Below, piece by piece: positions 11,264 to 64,000 of a stretch of 64,000 nucleotides of DNA; position 1 is the stretch's first letter; each line of letters begins with the position of its first letter. Both the position numbers and the translations under genes were made by a program. The notes under the pieces are model-generated. The model worked only from the letters and a program-made list of their open reading frames with translations. It made no database searches and was not told where the DNA came from. The stretch comes from Membranipora membranacea (taxonomy: Eukaryota > Bryozoa > Gymnolaemata > Cheilostomatida > Membraniporidae). Location of the stretch: contig OU612071.1 of assembly GCA_914767715.1 (NCBI GenBank), forward strand, positions 27,091,681 to 27,155,680. Reading direction: 5' to 3'.

Positions 11264-12978
11264 TTAGCGAGTACACACAACACATGTGAGCTGCCTGTTG
11301 TTAACATATTGCCCATGTTCACATTCATCAATAGTGGCTCGCCCATCACAATCAGCATTCACAAACTCCAAACCCCCACCATAATTACGGCATGAATGTT
11401 CGTAGGAGAGTGGTGTATTATGGACACACGCATAGTTTGATGGATTTCTATAAGCAGTCTCCTGGTTGGCCATAAGATAGCCATAGTATTCACGTGTTCA
11501 GCCTGCGTCACAACTTGTACGAGCTGGTATCGTCATGACAGCAGGTCTCGACTCCGTGTAACATCTCGCACATACTGCTCTTTTTCCATGTAGATTATTG
11601 GGAAGTATTCCATAATCTTCAACAATATACTCTACTGATGCCATCCATGAAACCCATGATGCTGAGTAATTGAACTTCAGCCATTGTGGATTTTGAGGGA
11701 GACAAAGATAGCCCACCCCACCGCTATTTGCAGTATATCTACTTCCACCAACAACCCCTATATAAACGAACGAAAACAACAATCACAATATTAAGCAAGT
11801 GGTGATATTTTTCTTTCATTATTAGAATGACTAGTAGCTACGTCAGGGTGTAGCAGTCACAACATCACATTTGCCATGATTTTTCCTTAGCCTTTGCTAG
11901 AATCCATCATCCCTTTACTGTTCTATGAAATCAGAGGGTTTATATCAGAGCTAGGCTCTAAATACCTTATGTGGTTATACTGGTGCAACCATGAAAACTA
12001 TTTGCAAATGCAGCACAAGAGAGCTTCTAATGAAAAGAGCTGGAGCAGAAAGTGAATCGATTCAGTACATAGGACTATCGATGAAAGTGTGTAACAACAT
12101 AATAAACTACCAAAACTTTTAAACAAACATCATAATAATGATCAGTGGTTCTCTTATTACCTCCCCACAGAATAGAACTGATGAACTAATTGTAACAGAC
12201 CTGTCTAAAATAAGTTGTTAAGATCTCACCGTGGTAAATGAGGGAAGATGTTGAGGGACAATCAGTTCTTCCCCAAACTGTGAACTCACTGCCTCCAGCA
12301 CCTCCCACGCCCTTTTGACCTTTTTGTCCGTACCCAGGTGTGTCCGGCACTTCCTTTCAAGCCTTGATCTCCTTTTGCACCCTGATTTCCAGGAGCCCCT
12401 TTCTGGCCAGAAAATCCTCTATCACCCTGCTGTCCAGCACCTTGCGGTCCTTGCTTTCTCGTAAGTCCTCTTGCACCAGTATCCCCTTTCTCCCCCTTTG
12501 ATAGGTCCACGATTCCTCTCAAAGTTCCAACTTCCGCTGTAATTAATCAACATACTTTTAGTTATAATGGATTATATGGGTTGATTGATATTTTAGATTA
12601 ATTTTTCCCTGTACTATGAGGATTGAAGGCATATAGTCTAGAATTAGATTAACTACACTATGACTATGACCGTAAAAGGCACAGAGACAGACAAAAAGGT
12701 CAAGGATGGGAACAGAAGAGTTTTTGGTTGTGAAGGATGGCTTACGAACCGTTTGGTCAGAACTGAATTACACAGATATATCAATAGATCAGTTACCTTT
12801 TACTTGCAAGTCATCGGCCTTCATTGCCTGTAGTTCACCATTGAGTCTTCCAAACTCTGTGGCAAAGTATGCTGTTGTCGATACAACAGTGATAAGAAGA
12901 ATGACTGTGCTCGCAAATAAAAGTATATTTAAGGATCTTGGGTTACAGCTGATAACATGACATATGTAGGAATCTTGT
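11264..12978 (-). pseudogene. Membrane-anchored short-chain collagen (C4-like), broken
   Basis: Three phase-matched exons: 12797-12978, 12230-12536 and 11264-11757, with acceptors TTTTGTAG, ATTACAG and TATATAG and donors GTAACT and GTGAGA. The first encodes a transmembrane segment (about NILLFASTVILLITVVSTTA) and a short helical neck. The second encodes Gly-X-Y repeats (GEKGDTGARG ... GDQGLKG). The third encodes the conserved Cys-rich C-terminal domain of short-chain collagens: TANSGGVGYLCLPQNPQW, then CARCYTESRPAVMTIPARTSC, GYLMA and a final LTCVVCTR. These proteins trimerise through the Gly-X-Y part; this one would face outside the cell as a type II membrane protein. There are two lesions. 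The collagen repeat shifts frame near 12340-12355, and TGA (11498-11500) stands where the family has a conserved Trp before EYxGYL. The N-terminal exon upstream was not found. Confidence 0.85.
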
Positions 12979-27867: not shown

Positions 27868-30604
27868 TCATAAATCAGTTCGATGGATAGCTGGGTTGAG
27901 ATATCGGTAGACTCGCTGTTTGAAAGCATATTTCTTCACATTGGTGTTGATTGTACCAACAACAGAACCTGTCCGGGTGTTGTGATCGTACATATGGCTT
28001 GTGGAGACTTTGCTTTCATCAACAGCTGCTGAACCTGCAATGATTTTGAAATACAATTTTAGATCGGAATTTTGTCGTCTTTCAGCTAGAGTCTGCCAAT
28101 CGAACTGAGACATGAGATCACTGATATGATCCGACTTCTTTTTGTGATAATCCCATCTGAAAGCCTTCCGATTAATCGCTTCCATAGTGTCGATGTGTTT
28201 CACCAAGTGAGGCGACCAGCTTTGAGAAGCGTATTCCAGTATAGGCCTACAAATACATTAATAGCAAATAGATCTGGATTTTGTACGAGCTTTTTTCAAA
28301 TTTCTCATCAACATATGAAGTGTTTGAGTGGCTTTTTTACATATCTCCCTGATGTGTTTGTCGAAGGATAATTGGTCATCTATATGTACACCTAGATATT
28401 TGATACTGGAGACTTGAGTCAGCTTGGAGTTGTTGAGCATGTAACTAGCCTGGGTTGAGTTATGTTTTTGACGCTGTATTCTCATGTGCTCACACTTATC
28501 CACATTGAACTTCATCTGCCAGGTGTTAGCCCACTCAATTAGTAGATCAAGATCGCTCTGCATATGATCCACATCCACCTGTGATTGTATTCGGTGAAAA
28601 GCTAAAGAGTCATCTGCAAATAGTCTAAGGTTTCAAAAATTGACACAAGATGGCATGTCGTTGATATATAATAAGAACAGGAGGGGCCCCAGAACACTGC
28701 CCTGGGGCACACCAGAGGTAACATGATGCAAAGAAGATTGGACACCATTAACTGTCACTGTGAGTAGTCGGTTGGATAACCATTCAGATATCCAATTGCA
28801 GGTAGATCTATGGATTCCTATGGCTTTCATCTTGAGGAGAAGTTTTGGATGCGAGACGACATCAGAAGCCTTTGAGAAGTCAAGGACTGCTAGATCAACC
28901 GGGATGTTCTGATCATAGGCTTCCACAAGGTCTGTTATGGTTGTAAGAAGCTGGGTGTCGCAGCCATGTTGCTTTCTAAATCCATGCTGGCATTCTACAA
29001 GCAGATTGTTATTATCTAGGAAATTGTTTATGTCATGACATAGAATATGTTCTAGTATTTTAGATGTAATACAGGTCATAGAGATTGGTCGGTAATTCAG
29101 CGGATTACTGCGAGAGCCTTTCTTGTGGATTGGAATGCCATTAGCAAGCTTCCAGTCGTCAGGAACAGCGCCTGTATCAAGAGAATATTGGTAGAATAAT
29201 GACAATGGTTTGTAGATAAAATTTGCCAGAAACTTAAGCAAGGCAGAGGAGAGTCCGTCAGGTCCCGCACCTTTAGTGCGATCAAGTGATTGGAGTTGCT
29301 TCAGCACTCCAATTGGCTGAATCTTAATACATGAAGACTGTTGAGCAGTACATGGGTTTGTGGGGGGCTGTCTACCATCATCGTCAGTAAAGACAGAGCT
29401 GAAAGCAGATGCAAAGCAATCAGTGATATCAGCGGCTGAGTCGGACAGGCAACCATCTATCTTCTTGATTGTATTGCTGTTTCCACGCCTGTTAGAAATG
29501 AACTTGAACAGGGGTTTACTGTCTCCATTCTCGAGCTTGCTACAAATATGGTTGTTTATAAATGCATTGTAATCATGTTTTATGAGTTTATCACAGAGTT
29601 TAGATTGTTTAGACGCTTTTTCTCTGTTCTCGGCAGTATTGTGTAGCTTACTTGTTTTATGCCATCGCTTCCTCCGATTTACTTCCCTCTCTGTTGACTT
29701 GGACATCCAAGGGCTCGGGGTGGGCTTTCTCCTTTTGCTTGGAATGTTTTTAAAAGCGGATTTGAGAATACTGGATTTGAAGGTTTCCCAAACTGTGTTT
29801 ACAGGGGCCCCGACTTTCACTTGCTGGCTAATTTCAGTTTCGATGTCATAGCAGTCAATCATTATCTCAGGGATTTTGGCCTTTTTGAAATTCCAAAATG
29901 GTGTAGTATTGTTGTTATTGATAGAGTCGGATATGGGATGCTCAGAGAATAGGTCAAACAAAAGCACATGGTGATCAGAACAACTTGGCTCACTTATAGG
30001 GATAGAGAGGTCCAAGTTAGAGAGTACAAGGTCGAGGGTGTTTCCGTGTGTGTGTCGGAAAATCAACAAACTGTTCGAGGTCACTGGCTTCTACAAAATT
30101 CAGAAATGATTCATGCATATTTGGGTTCAGGCGTCTTTTGAGTTGACCTTTCGACCAATCAATGTCTGGTAGGTTGAAGTCACCTACAATCAGTTGATTA
30201 CATGAGGTCTGGTTACGATGCCAGGTAAGGAAATCATCTATTGAATTGATAGCTGGTCTCCGATAGTACACTGTAAAAGAGAAAGAAAACCCACCAATAC
30301 TAAGGTCAAGTGACAGGATTTCACCTCTTTCTTCTGGTGTGATCTTATTAACTAGTATATTCGATGTTTCACAAACACCAATCAATACTCCTCCACCACG
30401 ACCAGAAGTGTTAACACGATCTAGCCTGTAAAGGGTATAATTATCACAAATTTCTTTATCTAAAATGCTACCAATTAGTTTAGTTTCTGTGAGGGCAAAT
30501 AGGTCAGGTTTGTGATGGTCAAGAATTAACTCCAGTTGGTGCCTTTTCCCACTTATGCCGTTGCAGTTCCAGACCAATATACTGACAGGATGCTTAGTAT
30601 CCAT
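27868..30604 (-). pseudogene. Near-complete LINE with endonuclease and RT, few lesions
   Basis: Minus-strand non-LTR element of CR1/Jockey type. The AP endonuclease starts at MDTKHPVSILVWNCNG (30604), with LTETKLIG, GRGGGVLIGV, and VGDFNLPDIDW (about 30180-30150). A frame change near 30050-30080 leads to NTLDLVLSN and CSDHHVLLF. RT blocks: TKGAGPDGLSS (29270), NYRPISMTCITSKILEHIL (29100), HGFRKQHGCDTQL (28975), VLDFSKASDVVSH (28885; Ser where Phe is usual), TSGVPQGSVLGPLLFLLYIN (28720). TGA at 28633-28635 is followed in frame by LRLFADDSLAF, and TAA at 28258-28260 by CRPILEYASQSWSPHLV. Apart from one shift and two point stops the frame is open for about 2.7 kb. It is a young copy compared with the others here. 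Traces of an ORF1 end (about 30740-30660) precede it. Confidence 0.92.
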
Positions 30605-39855: not shown

Positions 39856-41373
39856 TTATGGACCTAAGAACTTTGGTTGTAATTTACGGCTAATCCCTCG
39901 ACCATATTTCCTCTTGCTCACCAACCAAACCAAATCACCTTTGCTGTACAAAGGGGGTTCCTCGGTGTCTTCCTTCCGGATGTCTAGTTCTCTCTTCCGG
40001 ATGAAGTCATGAGCTTCCCGCGGGTGGTCTTTGGTTTGTTGGACATAAATATTTCTAGGGGCAGGTTTAGAAGGGGTTTTTTCATAAACTGAGTCATCAG
40101 GTAATGGCAATTCTCTGCCTAACATAAGGCTATTAGCAGTCTCCTGTGTTAATGAGTGGGGAGCGGCCCGGAAAGCTCGGAGAATTTGAGGAATTACTAG
40201 AGCCCAGTTTTCATGGCCTATATCAATGATCAATACTCGTAAACTATCTCCGAGCGGGCGATTATTTCTCTCTACCATGCCGTTACCTTGGGGGTGGTAA
40301 GGGATAGTCCGTGTTTTGTCTACTCTCAAGAGTTTGCACAGTTCTGTTACCAATTCTGATTCAAACTGGGCACCTTGGTCACTGTGTATTTGTTCTGGTA
40401 ACCCAAAATAGCAAAATACACGAGCATCTAGTATGAATGCGACGTGGGGGGCTGTTTCATTCATTATTGGTATGGTGTCTTGCCATCGGGTGAAATGGTC
40501 AGTCAACACCAAGATCCATGCATTCTGACAAGGGGTCAGGGAAAAGGGGCCAACTAAATATATGGCTACTCGTTGCCAGGGGCGTCCAGCATGGAGGCGT
40601 TGTCTATTCTTACTCATTGGTACGCTGCTTGAATTGGCCATCTGTCAAATCTCACAGCTAGATACCGCCTGGAGGATATCTGCAGTCATGCCAGGCCAAT
40701 ACCATTTCAGTCGTATTCTTCCCAGGGTTTTCTTCCGGCTTTGGTTGGCCGGGGAATGGGTCTCCCATATGACTGTCTGGCGAGCGTCTTTGGACATAAT
40801 TATTGTCAACCACCGGGGTATACGTATGACTACCTTGGCTTGGAGGAGGCTGTCAGAGATGCGAAGGTGGTCGAACATTTTGTTCAGTTTCCGTATTTCG
40901 GGGGCTTCATGTGCAATCTGGTCATTTGAGAGGGGCTCTCCATCACTAACTGCTTGATAAATAGGGGATAGCTGGCCTTGCCTCTGCAGCGTGGATATGT
41001 TATATTGCTCAAGGGAGACATCAATGCGGTAGATGGGTTCGGGTAATAGGGATAGGGGAAGGGTGGGGATCTCAGTGGGGGATAGGCCATGGTTATCACT
41101 GCTAGGAGGGAATTGGGGACAGGGTGGCAGAGTGCTACAAGCAGCAACTGTTGGCTTTGGGTTAATTGGCCTGGACTGGTCGATGGAGATGGGTTCGGGC
41201 AATAGGGGTAGGGGAATAGTGGGGATGTCCGTTGGGAATGGGCCTTGGTTAGCATTGCTAGGAGGGAATTGGGGACTGGGTGGCAGAGTGCTACAAGCTG
41301 CAACTGTTAGCTTCGGGGAAATTGGCCTGGACTGGTTGATGGAATCAGAGAGAAGCTGGAGGATTTCAGTCAT
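39856..41373 (-). pseudogene. Gypsy integrase (stops and catalytic change)
   Basis: The N-terminal zinc-binding region, with LKWYWPGMTADILQ, lies at about 40720-40680 and ends in TGA (40645-40647) at the last zinc-ligand position. The core follows: VAIYLVGPF with TAT at 40558-40560 where the first catalytic Asp is normal, then IHSDQGAQFES (second Asp, about 40360) and GNGMVERNNR (Glu, about 40285). The C-terminal part has KGDLVWLVSKRKYG (about 39935-39900) and TAA at 39856-39858 after KFLGP. Upstream, 41344-41033 encodes a proline-rich spacer made of two 52-residue tandem copies. Loss of the first acidic residue would abolish strand transfer. Confidence 0.85.
41033..41344. repeat. 156-bp tandem duplication inside pol
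   Basis: ATGGGTTCGGG(T/C)AATAGGG starts at 41033 and 41189. The two copies keep frame and encode a proline-rich 52-residue repeat (…ACSTLPPSPQFPPSNANQG… and …ACSTLPPCPQFPPSSDNHG…). Confidence 0.9.
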
Positions 41374-52343: not shown

Positions 52344-55300
52344 TTATAGACATGAATCTGTTTTTGTGTCGTATATTTTATTCTGAACACATGAAGAAGT
52401 CAGCACCAGCTTGATATATGCTCCTGCCTTTGTCTTAGTCGGGTAAACTAACCTGGTGGATAGAAGAAAGAATATTCCATCAACTTCTGCAAAATCATAA
52501 TTGATCACATTTACAATCAGTGTTTCTGTACTGAAGCAGCGTAGCATCAAATTCAGGCAGTTAAAATAAAAAGAACTGGTTGTGATTCTAACATATGAAA
52601 TATTTAAATTGAAAGCATATACGACACACATAAATAAGTATATCTTGACAAAAGCAGTCATTCCTGATATGGAACTGACGTTCCAGGTCCTTGCAGGATG
52701 GGATCTATAATGCTGCAGGTCTGCTTGCTTGCTTGCCTGCTTGCACATCCACCGTACAGTAAATGGATACCCCTCTTCCAAAGTTTAAGAAGGCAGTGCA
52801 GTGCGTTGTCCGAGTATCATTGTTGCTAAAACCGTAGTTAAGAGGGGACAACTTTCTCTGCATTCACAACAAGACTAGACGTGTGGCAAAAAAATTGCAA
52901 GGTCAGTTTGTAGGCAGGTCAGAACACACCTGGGGGTCCAACAAGTCCCAGATTGCAGTGGGATTCAAACCCACGACCTTTAACTGAGCCACCTCCTACT
53001 CCTAACTCACATGTTATAAGATTGAGGATACTCACGGGGGATTCCTGGTAATGACTACCAGATTAAGGGTGGGGTATCTACTCTTCTCCACAATTCTGTC
53101 TGTCAATCTCTGTTTTAAGTTTTGAGGTATTTTAGTAACTGTACTGTTGAATGTGACATCAGTAGACCAGGTGACCGTCAGAGTATCATTCTGACAACTT
53201 AGCTGAGCCTTAGAACCAGCTAGCGTACTGCAGTCTGAAAACCACAATTACATGATGTATGTTAATAAAAGCCCTGATTGTTTTACGAATAAAATCTGGA
53301 ACATGGATTAAATTTATATCTTTGTTCTTCATTTAAATACTAGTTGTTAAAACTTAGGATGGGAAAAATTTGTCAGTCACAATCATATCTGTAGTGCAAG
53401 GTATAATAGACTGCAGGTAGTAAATAAGACAGATAAGAGTGCTGCATAAGAACTCAGGCTACATCCGGGAATGCGCAGAAAAGAGGCATTAATAATGACG
53501 CTGGCTTAGAGGGGAGAAGAGAATGAGAGAAGACAAAGGAGTTGTACCTATACTGGACACCTCAGCATGTCTCATGTAAGTTGAATACACTACAATATCC
53601 ACACATAAAGATATTATTTCTCATACCACATACTGACCTGGCTGACATATTTCTCTTATCTGGTTGATATTACCATTAGCCACACTTGTTAGAGTAGATA
53701 GCGCAATGTTATCAGTGAGTAATGTACACTTTATACCATACTCAGCGACCATATCTACTCGTCTCACCAGCCAATAGTCTGAAAGGTTATGTATTAAATT
53801 TTATCTTTAGCTCAATCATTTCAATAACAAACATGTAGTTTTGGGGGAACAGTGATGCACTGTCTCCTTTAGACGGGTAAATGAAGTAGAACTATTTTCA
53901 ATTGGAACTGTTACTAGCATGGTCACTAAAAACTATTGTTTAATCATTAATTATTTGGGATTCGATCTAGGAAGCATATCAAGATCATATCAAGATTTTA
54001 GATAATATATTAAAGACTACCCAAAAACCAATGCATGTTATAGTCATGCAGTTACTTATGATGATGTTATGTCAGATTCGCATAGGTAAAAAAAATCTTC
54101 ATGTCCATCTTCATCTTAATGAGGAAACTCTAGTTCTTTGCATTAAGATGTCACAGCCCCAGGATGTGCTTGTTTCTTGTATTGCACATCTGGAAGACTG
54201 TGACATCATAATGCAAAGAATGAGAGTTGACTTCCCTTATGAAAGGCACTATTTCCACCAGCGATAATTCATGCCAAGTAGAGTATTGAAATTTTTTACC
54301 ATGCAAATCTGACACAACTTTATGATAAGCAACTGCCTGAGATTAACTTGATTTCATCTCTAAGAAGACTTTAATAAATTCTAAAAGTTACTTTGTTGAT
54401 ACATACCATAATATAGCACATCAATGTTCACTGTACAGCCTCCAGTGTGTACCACATGACTCCCAATAGGTAGTTCAGTTTTCACATCAGAAGTTATCTC
54501 CACCAATGCTCTCTCATCACTAGATGACACATATATTGTCATGTTTCTATTCTGACAAGGTGCATTGGTGGGTGTTGTCGGTGTACTGGTCAGCTTAATA
54601 TCTGCAAAAAATTCAAGTTGAAATATTATAATATAAGTCAGGAATGGTCTGATGGTTTACGGTGCGGACATGTGATCTGTGAGTTACAGGTTCAATTCTC
54701 GACGCCGACAGTCATTTCTGATTTGGTACTGGCGTACCATTCATCTAAGCAGGTCCTGGCGGAACGGAACTCAAAATACTATGTGTTTGCACACCCCACA
54801 TGCAATAAAAAGATCCCCCTTTTCCCATTCGATAAAAAAGAGTAGCCGGATTTCCGGCTGGCAAGGGTATAGGCTGCGGGTTGAGTACTATGTGTCCCTG
54901 TATCTGTACTTTAGAGGAGAAGCCTCTCCGCAAGGAAGACTTAGACTTAGACTTATAATATTTCTGGGTTCAAATATAAAGTTCCGTGTCTATTGCAATT
55001 ATTTCCGTTCCGTATTCTTTCTGTACCGTACAACTTCAATGTGTTGCTTTGAACGGAGTAGTCAAGAAACTACACAATTAGATGTTGCTAACTCACCAAT
55101 GTTTTTGACTGTTATGATTATAGAACAGCCGCCATGATAAACCACATGACGTCCCACTGTGTATCCCAATGTTATGTCAGGGGTAATCCTGACCAACGCG
55201 CTCTCGCCATCAGATGTCACATAAGCAGTGATATTTCTGTTCCGACAAGGTGCTCTGCTGGTCAAGTTTCGTATGGTAGCTCTCTGTGTGGTAGGTGTTG

Positions 55301-57791
55301 GTGTGGTCGTTATTTGTACGGTAGTTTTTGGTTTGGTAATTGCTGAGGTAGTTGTTACTGGCATTGTCTTTTTAGGTGTGGTAGTGGTTGATGAGATAGT
55401 CGCTTGTGAGTTGAAGAGTGTGCGATCTACAAAGTTACACAATGAGAATGTATACAAATTTCTGGGAGAAATTCAAATAAGGGGGTCTCTCAGTCTCTCC
55501 TGTTTAGAGAGTAAGAGACAAAAGCAAAGCACTACTGGAATGGAGTAGGTGCATTAGCCAAATAGGAGTATGCTGATAATATAAATGACCCAAATCCTCT
55601 GGTCATATACTCAATTTAATCAACTTTGTAGCAGCGAAGAAGATACTAGAAAACATTCTCTACTAATTTTCTCTATAAAACAAATGGATATAACCAGGTC
55701 TTTACTTCGCCTTAGTACTCACATGTGAACTGCTGCACACTATCGAATTGTCCGATGTACAATGAGGTATTTGTTAGCAGTAGGGAGTAAGGACCATCTA
55801 GACATCCAGAGCAGAGATCCAGTGTGGATATTTTGCCTCTGGTTGTGTCTACTAGTTTAATCTGTTTAACGTCAGCTGTGAGAATAGTTTGATCACCAAT
55901 GAATATAAGGCCACGGGGTTGTAGATCAGATCTGGAGATTGTTACAAGTTTGACTGCTCTGTCTGTGTATCTGATGCAGTAGATAGCTTTGTCTACCGTC
56001 ACAAAGACATCTCCATTCCCAGCCTGTGTCATGTGACTAATTTTCCTCAGAAGGTCAGAGGTCACAAAAGTTTTTTGAGCTCCATCAATGATATCTACAG
56101 TTCTAACCTTGTAGCCATTGTAGTCAGACACGAGAAGTTTACTCTCGTCCTTCTTGTCTCTTATCACAGATTGAGGACTGAATAACTGAGCGGTACGACT
56201 GCCCGAGTTCCATCGTGTCCGACACTGTCCACTAAACGTTGAGGTTTATCCAGTAGCGCGGTCAATCAGTCGTAGACAGTGATTACCGTTATCGGCCACA
56301 ACCACACGCCATTTTGAGGATTGTGTGAATCCGTCGATATTGTTGAATCGGGCCCCTGTAACACGCCCCTCCTGGTACCCCTTCCTGTTTGCACTGCCTG
56401 CTATAGTGAGTGATGTCGTGCCATCACTAGTTTTCAGTGAATGCATATGGGTGTAAATGATGAATCCTGGTCTATACATATCCAACTCAAGATGGCGGAC
56501 GTAGTCATCGGCGGCCCTGATCATGGATCTTGCTGTAGATTTCTCCAGTCTGTGAATATTAAAATTTGAACCGTACCGTAATAGTGTTCAGTGCTAGCAG
56601 TAGTGGACATTGATTTGAATATTGATGTTTATAAAGTTTTGAGCAATATTTTAGAAGAACTGAGTTTATTTTACACACTAAATATGGAAGAGGAATCATG
56701 AAACGTCTTAACTAAACTTTAATTCGCTGTTGACTTTTTTGCTGGTCAACATTGGGAAAGTCAAAAAAAACATCAAGACAAATTACGTTTACCGAGATGA
56801 ATGAAATTTATCAAACCCAAAAAAGCAGCGATTCTTCTGTTTGGACATATACCGATCAACGCCTTCATTCCCCAAATAAGAAAGCTTGAGAAAAGCTTTT
56901 GAAGTTAAGATAATGCAGTAACTGACAACGCTCACAGATTATACCGCACAAAAATTCTGCAAGCACCACAAGGAACAAAGCAGGTCATAAAAAACCCATA
57001 TCGCATTTCTATCAAACTTAGACCGTTTTGCCCTAGAACTCTTCATCGTAGTTGCTTTGCATACATTTAATGGTAAATCAGCTGAACCGGTAAAATGATC
57101 TAGTAGATCTACTTGTGGAAACCATTAAGACAGTAACTCACCGATCAACTAGAGTCTGTGTTTCCTGATCCATACCCAAACCAGACTTCAGTGTCACACA
57201 AAATAAGACCTGTTACAAAAGACTAATGGCAGTAAAAATGCAATCATAAAATCAATAGAGTAAACAGCTAATCTGGCGCCTTGGTCCTCAAATGTTTCTG
57301 TACAGCATCCGATGAAGTGATAAATTTACTAACTAACTAACTTTAAGGTAATACTGGTCAACACAACAAAATAAGTAGTTTACAAACAAAAGACTCACTA
57401 AAGTATGACGTATTTCCTCCTGGTAATGTCCTCATTATGTTCTTAATACGAAACAACCAAATGAATTAGACTGCTGACCCTTGTAAACTTTTGTCAAGCA
57501 GCTTGCCTGAGTTTTTTAAAGTTATTTCTGGGACGTCAATCAATTCATAGCATATGAGCTGCCGGATCTATAGGTTTATTTCGATCCTGACACAATATTT
57601 AATGCTGATGGTATATCTCATAGCCACCCTTTGTAATTTACCACTGATGCACAAATTCATATGAATGGTTAGACCTTGTCAACACTATAACAATAATAGC
57701 TATTTCAACTATTCATTCACTCTTTGAACAGCATAACCAGACCTTGCTGACCACATATACTCACAATTAAAAATGGTAACCTCAGCTCCAT
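52344..57791 (-). CDS. Secreted NHL-propeller protein with HYR-like domains; one in-frame TAA
   Basis: Eight exons join in phase: 57765-57791, 57142-57209, 55723-56549, 55097-55402, 54407-54601, 53638-53778, 53036-53234 and 52344-52587. Exons 1-2 give a signal peptide (MELRLPFLIVLFCVTLKSGL). Exon 3 is an NHL beta-propeller: ARFNNIDGF, VVVADNGNHCLRLIDRATG, LLVSDYNGYKVRTVDI and GLIFIGDQTILTADVKQIKL. Exon 4 starts with a Thr-rich linker. Exons 4 and 5 each encode a related domain (APCRNRNITAYV ... GRHVVYHGGCS; APCQNRNMTIYV ... GSHVVHTGGCT), similar to the end of HYR modules. Exons 6-8 are unclassified and end KIYDTKTDSCL. NHL and HYR modules bind partners outside cells; no transmembrane segment is seen. 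TAA at 56246-56248 interrupts the propeller in frame: a null allele, readthrough or sequence error. The downstream neighbour is the PARP receptor gene. Confidence 0.75.
52895..53012 (-). repeat. tRNA-like SINE head in an intron
   Basis: The minus strand reads GGTGGCTCAGTTAAAGGTCG (A-box-like) and GTGGGTTTGAATCCCACTGC (B box) without cloverleaf stems. It lies in the intron between exons 8 and 7 of the NHL gene. Confidence 0.55.
54640..54960 (+). repeat. SINE with tRNA head and (GACTTA)n tail
   Basis: + strand: TGGTCTGATGGTTTACGGTG (A-box region), GTTACAGGTTCAATTCTCGA (B-box region), a ~200 bp body containing CCCACATGCAATAAAAAGAT and CTGCGGGTTGAGTACTATGT, and a tail GACTTAGACTTAGACTTA. The tandem tail is the usual 3' end of a SINE. 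It lies in the intron between exons 5 and 4 of the NHL gene, antisense to it. Confidence 0.8.
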
Positions 57792-59045: not shown

Positions 59046-59346
59046 TCACTCTTACATTATATAAAAAATAGGACACTGTGAAATAACTGGACAAAATATA
59101 AGAGCATTCAAAACAGACCTTTTAGTACAAAGAATATCATCTTACAAAAATTTTTAGAAGTGAGACATTGCGTGACAATAATCTTGGCAAAACCTTTGGC
59201 TAGGTAAATCTGACAAATTAACTTGTTACTTGTAAACTATTCAAGGGCAGAACATCTTAAAACTACTGCTGCCACTCATGCAAATGACGTGTGCTCATTG
59301 AGTTCTGCATAGCTCCAATATAGTTGATTGAGACTTAAATCTCGTA

Positions 59347-59678: not shown

Positions 59679-60626
59679 TTAGCATGCTGGGGTTGAGTAT
59701 CTGATAACATACATTGGGTATGCTGCTGTATCATGGAACACGGCAAACAGTGCTGGGTTAGTTAGACTGTTTGCAGCCGAGTCGTGCTGTTCTGTTCTCG
59801 ATCCCGATATATACGGTAATGTTTTCATGCCCTGTGTTCCTAAGCAGTAGTCACCTGTTATCACTGATACAAGCATCATGTGTCTGTCACCACATGAGTT
59901 AGCAGCTGTGAAAGAATGGGAATATCTGGCCGACAAGGCAAAGTACGCTCCGCATCCGTATTTAGACCGACCTGTGAAAATAAATAATTAATTAATTATT
60001 ATACCCTTTTTCATTGCTGATTAATGTACCAAAGTATCACCTATGTTCTTGTTTATAATATGTGAAAGATGGTGGGTAATAATGTGGTCAGCCAGTGAGT
60101 GAAAAGAATAAAAATGGAATAATGGTTATGACAACTGCGATACAAACAGAGATGCCGAGCCTGGTGTTTGCACATGTCACACTACCTGCTGGTCTGCCGA
60201 GCATATGCGCATGGTGAGCGGAGAGACATGTGAAGGCTAAAATGTAAATATTTGGGGGGATATCCAGTTCACTTCGGCACAGAATCAGTACATCTAGTTC
60301 ATTCGAGAAAGAGTTGTTGATTCTGCTCCATATTCTTTTTAATTCATCAGCAGTATGAATACCTTGTTGTATATAGAGGTGTTAAATTGTCAATAGAGCA
60401 CCGAATTAACACATTGCCACATTTCATAATTTAAAAAGAAATGACCTGTTCTGGATCTGTCAAAGTTGGTTTGAGTTATCTTCCCCACATTTTCCTCCGT
60501 TGTTCCATGCCACAGTTCTCTCTCTATGGTTAAGTCATCTCGGTTACGACTCTTTAGTTTCGTCTGCACAAAGTGCCTATGAATTCTATACTGATCATAT
60601 GCGACAGGATTTTGAATTCTGGTGAT
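59679..60626 (-). CDS. PARP catalytic domain exons (part of the 59.7-64 kb gene)
   Basis: Exon 60446-60626 starts with the β-strand ITRIQNPVAYDQY found at the entrance of PARP catalytic domains and carries the HGT motif (LWHGTTEENVGKI). The phase-1 junction ACA|G to GT gives RSRTGRSKYG. Exon 59679-59971 carries the Tyr motif GCGAYFA, the helix KYS-like RYSHSFTAANSCGDRHMMLV, the VITGDYCLGTQGM strand, an RTEQHDSAAN loop and the end strands FAVFHDTAAYPMYVI, finishing STPAC and TAA. The loop between the two exons (TGRSK) is shorter than in most PARPs. No stop or frameshift interrupts the domain, so it is likely functional. Confidence 0.92.
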
Positions 60627-63600
60627 CTGAAATTTAAAATAGGTATAACTGCAACATGCTGATTTGAGAGCAATCTAATTCAATGGCATTATGTACCATT
60701 GCTATTTTATATCTATTAATCATTTTTCCAACTTATTCACTGATCAAGCTTATTTAGGGCAATGTGCATATAACACTGTAAACTGTAAAACCTCAGTTAG
60801 TACAATATAGTGACAATGAGTAGGGGAGAAATTGACCTGGGCAAAGCAACCTGGGATTAGATCTCCAATCTCCCAAAAATATCCTCATTGGTTGCCTAAA
60901 TGTGTTTCATGTATTAATTCACTAAGTGAGTAAATAACTATTTCAAGTGAGTAGTGTCGGTTAGTACTAAAGAAGATGTATACACTCGAGGGTACTGGGG
61001 GCTGGAACAATTACCCTTGATAGCCTTCCCAGAGGGGCCCAAACCCACAAACTCTGAAGCACCAATGGGTTGATGGCGCTTATTGGCATACTCGCTATTC
61101 ACGACTCAGAGTTGTATTCTCTCGTCCCACAGCACAGTCCAATTTTCCATCGCCTCTCTATGCAACACATCATACGTGTTAGGGTTATAAGCTTTACATG
61201 GCTCATTGCTGAGACCCCTTGATAGTGACTTATAGCTGTCTTTCCATTTTCTCTGTATTTCTTTCCGTGATGTCACGTGTCTTTCGAGGGAGTGGTCTTT
61301 GTAATTACTGAAGCTTACCTGTTTTACTTCGGCGGTCTGTATCAGCGATTTAATGAACTTTGTGCTCACAGACAGATACTCTCTAGAATCAGAAGATAGT
61401 ATCACCTCACTGTACCCACTGACATCTCCACACCAGGTGATTGGGTAATCTAAACAATAGAATATAGAAAATTATGCTTTCATAGTCTTGGTTTCCTTGT
61501 GGGCATTTACATAGCTGAGTACTAGCGATGTGATGTGAAGTATTAAAACAAAAATATTCATTCTGCATGTGGAGATTCGAAGACACAAAGCTTCTATTAT
61601 TTCGATAATTTGCATGTGATCCACGACAACTTGGCCTGAGCAAAACCTGGCCCGAGCCAAACTTGGCCCAATACAAAATTGGCCTGAGCCAAACTTTGCC
61701 CAAATTAGTAACACTTATCCCAAAATACAAAACTTGGCCCCAAATATAATGCTTTGCTCCATGTAATTTTACTTGGCCCGAGCAAAACTTGGCCCCTGCC
61801 AAACTTGCCCCGAGCCAAACTTGGCCGCGATTAGTAAATCATGGCGCCAATTTGTTAAACTTGCCCCCAAATATAAAACTTGACCCCAATTAGTAAAACT
61901 TGGTCCCAAATACAAAACTTGGCCCCAAATATAATACTTTGGCAGGCCCGTAGTTCTAGGGGAGGCAGGGGCGCTATGCCTCCCCTAGAATGGAAAATAG
62001 AGTGGCCTAAAAATGTTAAAATTGAATATTCCACGCCAGAATCAGCTCATCTAGGAATTCTATTTGCTATTTATGTGAGCTAATTTGCTTTGGGAAGGTC
62101 GTAGCACCCCATCCTATTGATGTTTTGGACTCGCCTCAGATTTTGCCTCCCCTACCATTATTTCTAAACTACGGCCCTGCTTGGCCCAATCTCCTGAAAC
62201 GTGGCCTGAATTGGTAAAACTAGGCTATAAATACAAAATTTTGCCCAAAATATAAAACTTGACCCCTTGTGCAAAAGCTAAGCTAAATTTAAAGTTTGGC
62301 TCGGGCCTTGTTTTACTCGGGCCATGTTTGGACAGGGCCACGTTTAGACAGGGCCATGTTTGGATGAAGCGTAGTTTTTTGAAGTTATAGGACAACTGGC
62401 CTTCACTTATACCTGTTGCATTAAAAGCCATGTCATTTTCAACATAATTGGTTCTACCAGATTAAAATATTATTTGCTTGATGCAAATGTGGTTTGGGAT
62501 CAGCCACTAAATATAAAACACCATGATTTAACTTATATCAGCTAGAGAGGAAGGAGATACCTTTGAGTGCTTTAGTGTTTAGTTTCTTTCCAGCCTGTTG
62601 CCTGAAAATAGATAATAAAATAAGATCAAATATCCATGGTCAAATCATTTGAATCAGATTCTATTTTAGGCCTTGAAGATTGAAGTGCTTGGGCTGGACA
62701 ATATGTTGTTAGGAATAAAGGTTGAAAGTTAACAATACCTTTGTCTATCGTTATACTTTTTTCAGGTCGAATCTCCTAGCCTCAATAAGAAAGCACAAGA
62801 ACAATGAATATGGTTATTATGTATCACATGTGATAAGGAACAAGGAACAACAGTCTCAAGGTTAGGAGTTAAGGGAGACATGACTCCTAGATATTTTATT
62901 ATACCATCGTATAATTGTATGGGTTTAAATCTGTCTTAGGGCACCAAAGGGATCTTGTGTGCACCAAACCTGCCATTACTTAAAGGGTTATAAAAATTAT
63001 ATAATTTGTGAGGTCACCATCGGGTAAATTAAGTGTTTATGTCCCCTGCAAAAAGTGTGGGCAAAAGAGCAGGGGAGCTATCATATGATTTCTATGCAAA
63101 TTTTCCTCCACTGCATACTTGAAGCCCATGGTTCAGGCATGGACAGCTTCAAAATCAAAATCAATTTTTTTTTCCAAATTCGCCAAGTTACAGAGAGTTT
63201 GTGTGCGTGAGGAGAATCTACAAGGTCGTGTAACTTTTTGAGCTCTTGAAAATGATATATGGTGACCCTGCACTTGTCATTTTTAAAAAGAACTTGTGAC
63301 TTGATTGGTAAATCAATGCTTACGCAGCCGCTAGTTTTATCCTTATGTTTTCCAATTCTGACTTGTCATTGCGCTTACAACATCCACACAAACAGTGTAT
63401 CGACAGGAAGATGGTCACTGTGCCCAAAATTAAACAGCTTATTAAGAGCCAGTCTTTAGTAGTATCCGATCTGTCACTAGTAGCTGGTTTTGTACTGGTG
63501 GTAGGAGTTTGACTTTTACTATGAGCAGGTGTTGTTCTTTTGACTGTGGTAGTAATAGGTTGATCAATAGGGTGAGACAATGTTTCATTATCGGAAAGGG

Positions 63601-64000
63601 TCGATCCTGCAATACTGGTCTGATTGCTTTTTTGGAATCTAGTCTCGTACACCAGAAACCCTAAATTATCAGCTATAACAAGTCTTTTTGGTGAGCCAGT
63701 TGTGAGAAAACCACATGAGATTACTCGGCTGTTGATTAGGGATGTGCGAACACCATAACCTTCATTTGTAATCTCGATGTGACGTTTATTTAACACCGAT
63801 CCTTGTATAACAGTTTTGTCATTAATAAAAAAGGCTTCACCGGCATCAGCAAAACTGTATATACTGGTAATTGTCATCATTCTCAATCGAATTTCGTTTG
63901 AAGGTTTTGGCTTTCTAAGGGTGTGTAGAATTCTTGACTGAGAAGGATTAAACACCAAAATACTCGACAGGGGATCAAACTGTCGTACAGGAACTTCAAA
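59679..64000 (-). CDS. Single-pass transmembrane protein with cytoplasmic PARP domain (5' end outside window)
   Basis: Five exons join with exact phase: 63324-64000 (cut by the edge), 62561-62601, 61319-61449, 60446-60626 and 59679-59971; donors GTAAGC, GTATCT, GTAAGC, GTCATT, all acceptors CAG or TAG. The extracellular part ends in a beta-propeller-like segment (RLVIADNLGFLVYE), then a Thr/Ser stalk (TTSTKPATSDRSDTTKD), a membrane span WLLISCLILGTVTIFLSIHC and a basic tail CKRNDKSELENIRIKLAAA. The next exons read QQAGKKLNTKALK, DYPITWCGDVSGY and AEVKQ, then the ADP-ribosyltransferase: ITRIQNPVAYDQYRIH, ERELWHGTTEENV (His), RSKYGCGAYFALSA (Tyr), NPALFAVFHD (Leu at the third triad position) and YPMYVIRY. 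H-Y-Leu fits mono-ADP-ribosyl transfer as in PARP10/11/12/14. Exon linkage is inferred; the domain itself is clear. Confidence 0.75.
61618..62340. repeat. Degenerate minisatellite (AACTTGGCCC)n, split by an insertion
   Basis: About 20 irregular units of 16-24 bases with the core AAACTTGGCCC and variable spacers (CGAGCC, AAATACAA, AATTAGTA) occupy 61618-61940 and continue at 62180-62340. It lies in the PARP gene intron between 61449 and 62561. A 237-bp MITE separates the two parts. Confidence 0.85.
61943..62179. mobile_element. 237-bp hAT-like MITE
   Basis: The ends CAGGCCCGTAGTT and AACTACGGCCCTG are inverted repeats with one mismatch. CAGGN..CCNTG ends fit hAT-type elements. The left side holds a 12-bp hairpin, CTAGGGGAGGCA paired with TGCCTCCCCTAG. 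The flanks CTTTGG and CTTGG are part of the minisatellite and could include the 8-bp duplication. Confidence 0.7.
62602..63323 (-). other. Intron joining the membrane and PARP parts
   Basis: Donor GTAAGC (63323-63318) and acceptor CTATTTTCAG (ending 62602) flank 722 bases without coding. If this intron were not spliced the protein would end at TAA 63320-63322 as ...KLAAA. Confidence 0.65.

Follow-up and report, generated by a model that had tools for sequence, protein, structure and literature searches.

Clade 3 of the PARP proteins includes PARP15, PARP12, PARP14, PARP10 and ZC3HAV1 (PARP13) in the grouping quoted in PMC4245714, and as described in section 12 of that paper the non-catalytic domains of its members are heterogeneous, with some proteins consisting of a PARP domain only. 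The same section attributes transmembrane and H_lectin domains to rhizarian clade-3 PARPs, and an N-terminal transmembrane domain to a clade-3 PARP of the sponge Amphimedon queenslandica. PARP16 also has a membrane segment, which lies C-terminally (PMC4245714). An N-terminally membrane-anchored clade-3 PARP is thus not new as such, and the preliminary description of the locus reported here, which held that a type I receptor form of PARP was not known, was too strong in view of the sponge case in print (PMC4245714). The titles and abstract openings of the PARP literature did not name a receptor-type PARP among the matches listed.

We analysed a window of 64,000 nucleotides from the bryozoan Membranipora membranacea, at the edge of which a minus-strand exon encoding a transmembrane (TM) segment precedes the exons of a PARP domain. 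The arrangement is like that of the Amphimedon protein in that a TM segment would lie N-terminal to a clade-3 PARP domain in an animal; section 12 of PMC4245714 describes the sponge protein without ectodomain, stalk or accession, and the two are likened by description only. It is like PARP16 in pairing a PARP with a membrane segment, but the segment would here be N-terminal and accompanied by an ectodomain, unlike the C-terminal one of PARP16 (PMC4245714). Five exons (64000-63324, 62601-62561, 61449-61319, 60626-60446 and 59971-59679) form an open frame of 440 aa without internal stop, running from the window edge to the stop at 59679; all four introns are GT..AG. The chain is present where the preliminary description had placed it, with matching phases and in frame. 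The relevant features are as follows, with splice scores taken from a matrix of generic metazoan frequencies that was not trained on this species.

63324-64000, minus strand: exon 1, encoding a partial ectodomain, a Ser/Thr-rich stalk, one TM helix and the start of a putative cytoplasmic tail; open frame of 226 aa, 5' end beyond the window
63379 (last exonic base), minus strand: alternative phase-1 donor GTT/GTAAGC, score 4.75, which could splice directly to exon 3
63363 (last exonic base), minus strand: alternative phase-2 donor CAA/GTCAGA, score 4.0, giving the same architecture with a shorter tail
63320-63322, minus strand: in-frame TAA stop overlapping the candidate donor TGC/GTAAGC (3.45 bits)
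62895-62900, minus strand: AATAAA that may serve to polyadenylate a transcript of the receptor alone; some 45 nt beyond it lies a T/GT-rich stretch
62561-62601, minus strand: exon 2, 41 bp, QQAGKKLNTKALK, putative juxtamembrane linker; top-ranked phase-compatible exon
61319-61449, minus strand: exon 3, in which the PARP catalytic domain begins (YPITW...), with PARP matches; its donor CAG/GTAAGC is in the top 0.06%
60446-60626, minus strand: exon 4, PARP domain with the catalytic His (WHGT), from the PARP alignment
59679-59971, minus strand: exon 5, PARP domain with the catalytic Tyr (GAYFA), the third-triad Leu (NPALFAVF) and the stop TAA, from the PARP alignment

The assignment of exons 3-5 to a PARP is secure. 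PF00644 matches the 440-aa chain with 58 bits against a Pfam gathering score of 26.7 (E 1.2e-15), and the best PDB match of the 214-aa PARP part is PARP15 (E 5.2e-25), aligned over residues 30-210; the catalytic domain is complete, as had been proposed. At E<=1e-3 the PDB gave 20 matches, all to PARP15, PARP12, PARP14, PARP10 and ZC3HAV1 (PARP13), with PARP16 not among them, and by these closest matches, rather than by a tree, the predicted domain belongs to clade 3 (PARP12/14/15-like). An alignment with four database proteins places the triad at His 97, Tyr 127 and Leu 192 of the PARP part, in columns that we take to be those of the triad. An H-Y-L triad is the PARP14/15 pattern and implies mono-ADP-ribosylation, and because of it the domain is probably a mono-ADP-ribosyltransferase.

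The domain thus resembles human PARP15, PARP14 and PARP12 in its PF00644 catalytic domain, and PARP14/15 in its H-Y-L residues. It differs from these human proteins in its surroundings, with no macrodomain, WWE, zinc finger or RRM found in the 440-aa chain by Pfam at E<=1, its 5' end lying outside the window, and a TM segment upstream instead. Their absence does not exclude clade-3 membership, because the clade is heterogeneous, some members have the PARP domain only and the 5' end lies beyond the window. A candidate cassette exon at 60362-60186 (minus strand, 177 bp, phase 1 on both sides), which would insert 59 aa into a loop of the PARP domain, was rejected: its acceptor scores below the median AG, and the PARP15 alignment continues through the insertion point without it. 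The frame of exon 3 continues past its very good donor for 70 codons without a stop (61109-61318, minus strand), and this stretch has no Pfam match at E<=1. Intron 2 contains tandem repeats at 61628-62364 with periods of 16, 19 and 39 bp and units such as AAACTTGGCCCCAAATATA.

The upstream exon has the features of a membrane protein, and the Ser/Thr stalk, single TM segment and basic cytoplasmic side of the preliminary description are borne out by hydropathy, composition and a structure model. Mean hydropathy over 19 residues reaches its maximum of 2.23 at residue 185/186 of exon 1, and the next-best value more than 30 residues away is 1.02. On its N-terminal side the segment has a 53-residue stalk, 41.5% of which is Ser/Thr, and it is followed by KRNDK, a positive side that from the sequence would be cytoplasmic. 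An alignment-free structure model of the exon 1 protein is of low quality as a whole (mean pLDDT 41) and contains a helix at residues 180-204, with block pLDDT of 73 and 83 across residues 181-200, and a second helix at 213-225; the ectodomain appears as strands only, at low confidence. The earlier label of a propeller-like ectodomain finds no support, because Pfam gave no family in the exon 1 part of the chain at E<=1, PDB gave no chain similar to the part of the ectodomain within the window at E<=10, and likeness to an NHL-like frame nearby (56245-55715) is not significant, its score being reached by 147 of 1000 shuffles.

That neighbouring frame (55715-56587, minus strand) is NHL-repeat-like at a Pfam NHL E of 0.014, below the cut-off. 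It is broken by a single in-frame TAA at 56246-56248, and downstream of it comes a Thr-rich stretch at 55065-55472; perhaps it is a decayed or mis-sequenced surface-protein gene. A unit of the form CxNRNxTxYVxSxxExALVxIT occurs twice on the minus strand, at 55065-55472 and 54387-54647 (40% identity, E 1e-14), and judging from the sequence these copies are duplicated extracellular-type domain exons; the first copy has no Pfam match above the cut-off. Farther away on the minus strand lie collagen triple-helix repeats (11267-12546, PF01391, E 4.4e-7), beside two frames without Pfam match that resemble the C-terminal portion of the short-chain collagens of invertebrates, and retrotransposons with frames for a reverse transcriptase (PF00078) and an integrase (PF00665) at 28636-30090 and 39859-40644.

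The central question is whether the TM exon is spliced to the PARP exons. The two halves are genuine and can be joined in correct phase, so that part of the proposed receptor-PARP fusion stands; the join itself is not established, because the donor at 63324 is weak in its exonic half, ATG-first exons fit the PARP exons, an AATAAA lies between the halves and no fused relative was found. Overlap of the TAA stop at 63320-63322 with the donor GTAAGC is as the preliminary description reported. Its characterization of this donor as strong does not hold, because its 3.45 bits place it only within the best 13% of the 3547 GTs on the minus strand; the intronic half GTAAGC is good and the exonic half TGC poor. 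The minus strand of the window has 14 copies of GTAAGC and the plus strand five. Two donors within the TM exon outscore 63324, namely 63363 in phase 2 (4.0) and 63379 in phase 1 (4.75), and all three yield one protein plan. With the fusion spliced as predicted, the juxtamembrane region would read QQAGKKLNTKALKDYPITW.

Between 63319 and 61450 there are 311 open exons of compatible phase, and exon 2 scores best among them, which counts for the fusion; when no frame condition is set, it comes second of 1235 AG..GT pairs. Pairs as good as exon 2 are common, with about 6.5 expected per 1.87 kb of minus strand, and this counts against it. The end of the TM exon was compared with the other ORFs of the 64-kb window, the TM exon itself being left out. 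Among 240 such ORFs of at least 60 aa, a phase-2 donor of the score of 63324 occurs at least once within the last 70 nt in 40; five have two, as the TM exon does, and six have a stop inside GTAAG. The corresponding numbers are nine, two and one of 49 ORFs of at least 100 aa, and zero of 15 in all three respects at 150 aa or more. Given these base rates, the coincidence of donor and stop is suggestive only and not proof of the join. The two phase-2 donors and the stop inside GTAAG speak for a fusion, and the presence of a comparable donor near the end of 40 of the 240 other ORFs speaks against it. Overall, splicing of the TM exon to exon 2 is permitted and, on the sequence, mildly favoured, not demonstrated.

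A serious competing explanation, to which we assign somewhat less than an even chance, is that of two same-strand neighbours: one codes for a surface protein with a short tail, stops at the TAA at 63320-63322 and is polyadenylated after 62900, and the other codes for an independent cytosolic PARP-domain protein and has its own 5' exon, for example 63129-63119 leading to exon 2 or 62431-62413 leading to exon 3. The first Met of the PARP chain is residue 149, after the catalytic His 97 and Tyr 127, and when exons 2 and 3 are extended upstream in frame, a stop comes before any Met; a stand-alone PARP therefore needs a separate ATG exon, and we count the lack of an early Met for the fusion. Such exons are available. 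For exon 2 there are six ATG-first exons of matching phase, and the best of them, 63129-63119, speaks for two genes because its donor (5.29) beats every donor listed in the TM exon. However, this exon is only 11 nt long, and each of the six starts ahead of the AATAAA at 62900, none lying downstream of it, so that the promoter of the PARP gene would overlap the 3' end of the receptor gene. A further 18 ATG-first exons fit exon 3 with exon 2 skipped (best donor 5.29), among them 62431-62413, which has a donor of 4.03 and is located after the AATAAA; start exons in that position, however, leave out exon 2, the best-scoring candidate exon.

The AATAAA at 62900 and the T/GT-rich stretch behind it are themselves consistent with a receptor gene that ends between the two halves, as is the weakness of donor 63324. 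Polyadenylation at this signal is possible, and the signal may also be a chance occurrence, because AATAAA is found at 0.875 per kb on the minus strand. Downstream of the PARP stop there is no AATAAA or ATTAAA down to 58500, and the first of the variant polyadenylation signals is at 59126. Two genes would also agree with the cnidarian and insect PARP12-like proteins, which section 12 of PMC4245714 describes as having a PARP domain only, sporadically with WWE.

Far less probable is a PARP gene with additional 5' exons beyond the window edge, encoding for instance other PARP14-like domains, in which the TM exon would be nested or alternative. The window does end inside exon 1, which leaves upstream exons outside it, and macro, WWE or RRM domains are common in PARP14-like proteins (PMC4245714 section 12). 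On the other hand, the TM exon and exon 2 have matching phases, and the 440-aa chain contains no Pfam family besides PARP at E<=1.

Protein searches yielded no fused TM-PARP relative and no relative of the receptor half, from which only the fusion query drew words; this counts against the fusion. The 440-aa query had five matches among 3779 candidates, covering 28-44% of its length. All five contain PF00644, two together with PF01661 and two with PF02825, one of the latter also with further families. Searches with the PARP part gave no match among 438 candidates of a second length range at E<=1e-3 and none among 218 of a third at E<=1. The Amphimedon TM-PARP did not turn up in any of these searches. 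These searches require shared 5-residue words and limited length ratios, and P0001, which the fusion query had matched, was not recovered with the PARP part although it was in the length range; a missed relative is therefore weak evidence. A scan of viral contigs produced three pattern matches, none of which was confirmed as a relative.

Taken together, we slightly favour a single gene over two neighbours, and consider the chances about even that the TM and PARP exons encode one type I membrane protein with a cytosolic clade-3 mono-ADP-ribosyltransferase. The in-frame five-exon chain, the complete PARP domain and the TM segment with its basic C-terminal side argue for this reading, and we also count for it the sponge PARP, in which an N-terminal TM domain precedes the PARP domain according to section 12 of PMC4245714. 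Against it stand the poor exonic half of donor 63324, the better-donor start exon 63129-63119 and the AATAAA between the halves.

In a single receptor-PARP gene, the ectodomain would be followed by a Ser/Thr stalk, probably O-glycosylated, and a single-pass type I TM helix, and a juxtamembrane linker of about 35 residues would lead to the cytosolic clade-3 (PARP12/14/15-like) H-Y-L mono-ADP-ribosyltransferase. The ectodomain could meet a ligand or a neighbouring cell, and the membrane-held enzyme might mono-ADP-ribosylate itself or cytosolic targets in its vicinity. Use of the stop and the AATAAA inside the first intron may give rise to a receptor-only form. By analogy with receptor kinases, the product could even be a type I receptor mono-ADP-ribosyltransferase that passes an extracellular signal directly to a PARP on the cytosolic side, with the overlap of stop and donor switching between a decoy receptor and an enzyme form, but we regard this extended scheme as unlikely.

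If the join is not real, the locus represents two ordinary adjacent genes. If it is real, intracellular ADP-ribosylation would be wired straight to a surface receptor in an animal, and the transmembrane PARP of the sponge would gain a candidate relative with an ectodomain.
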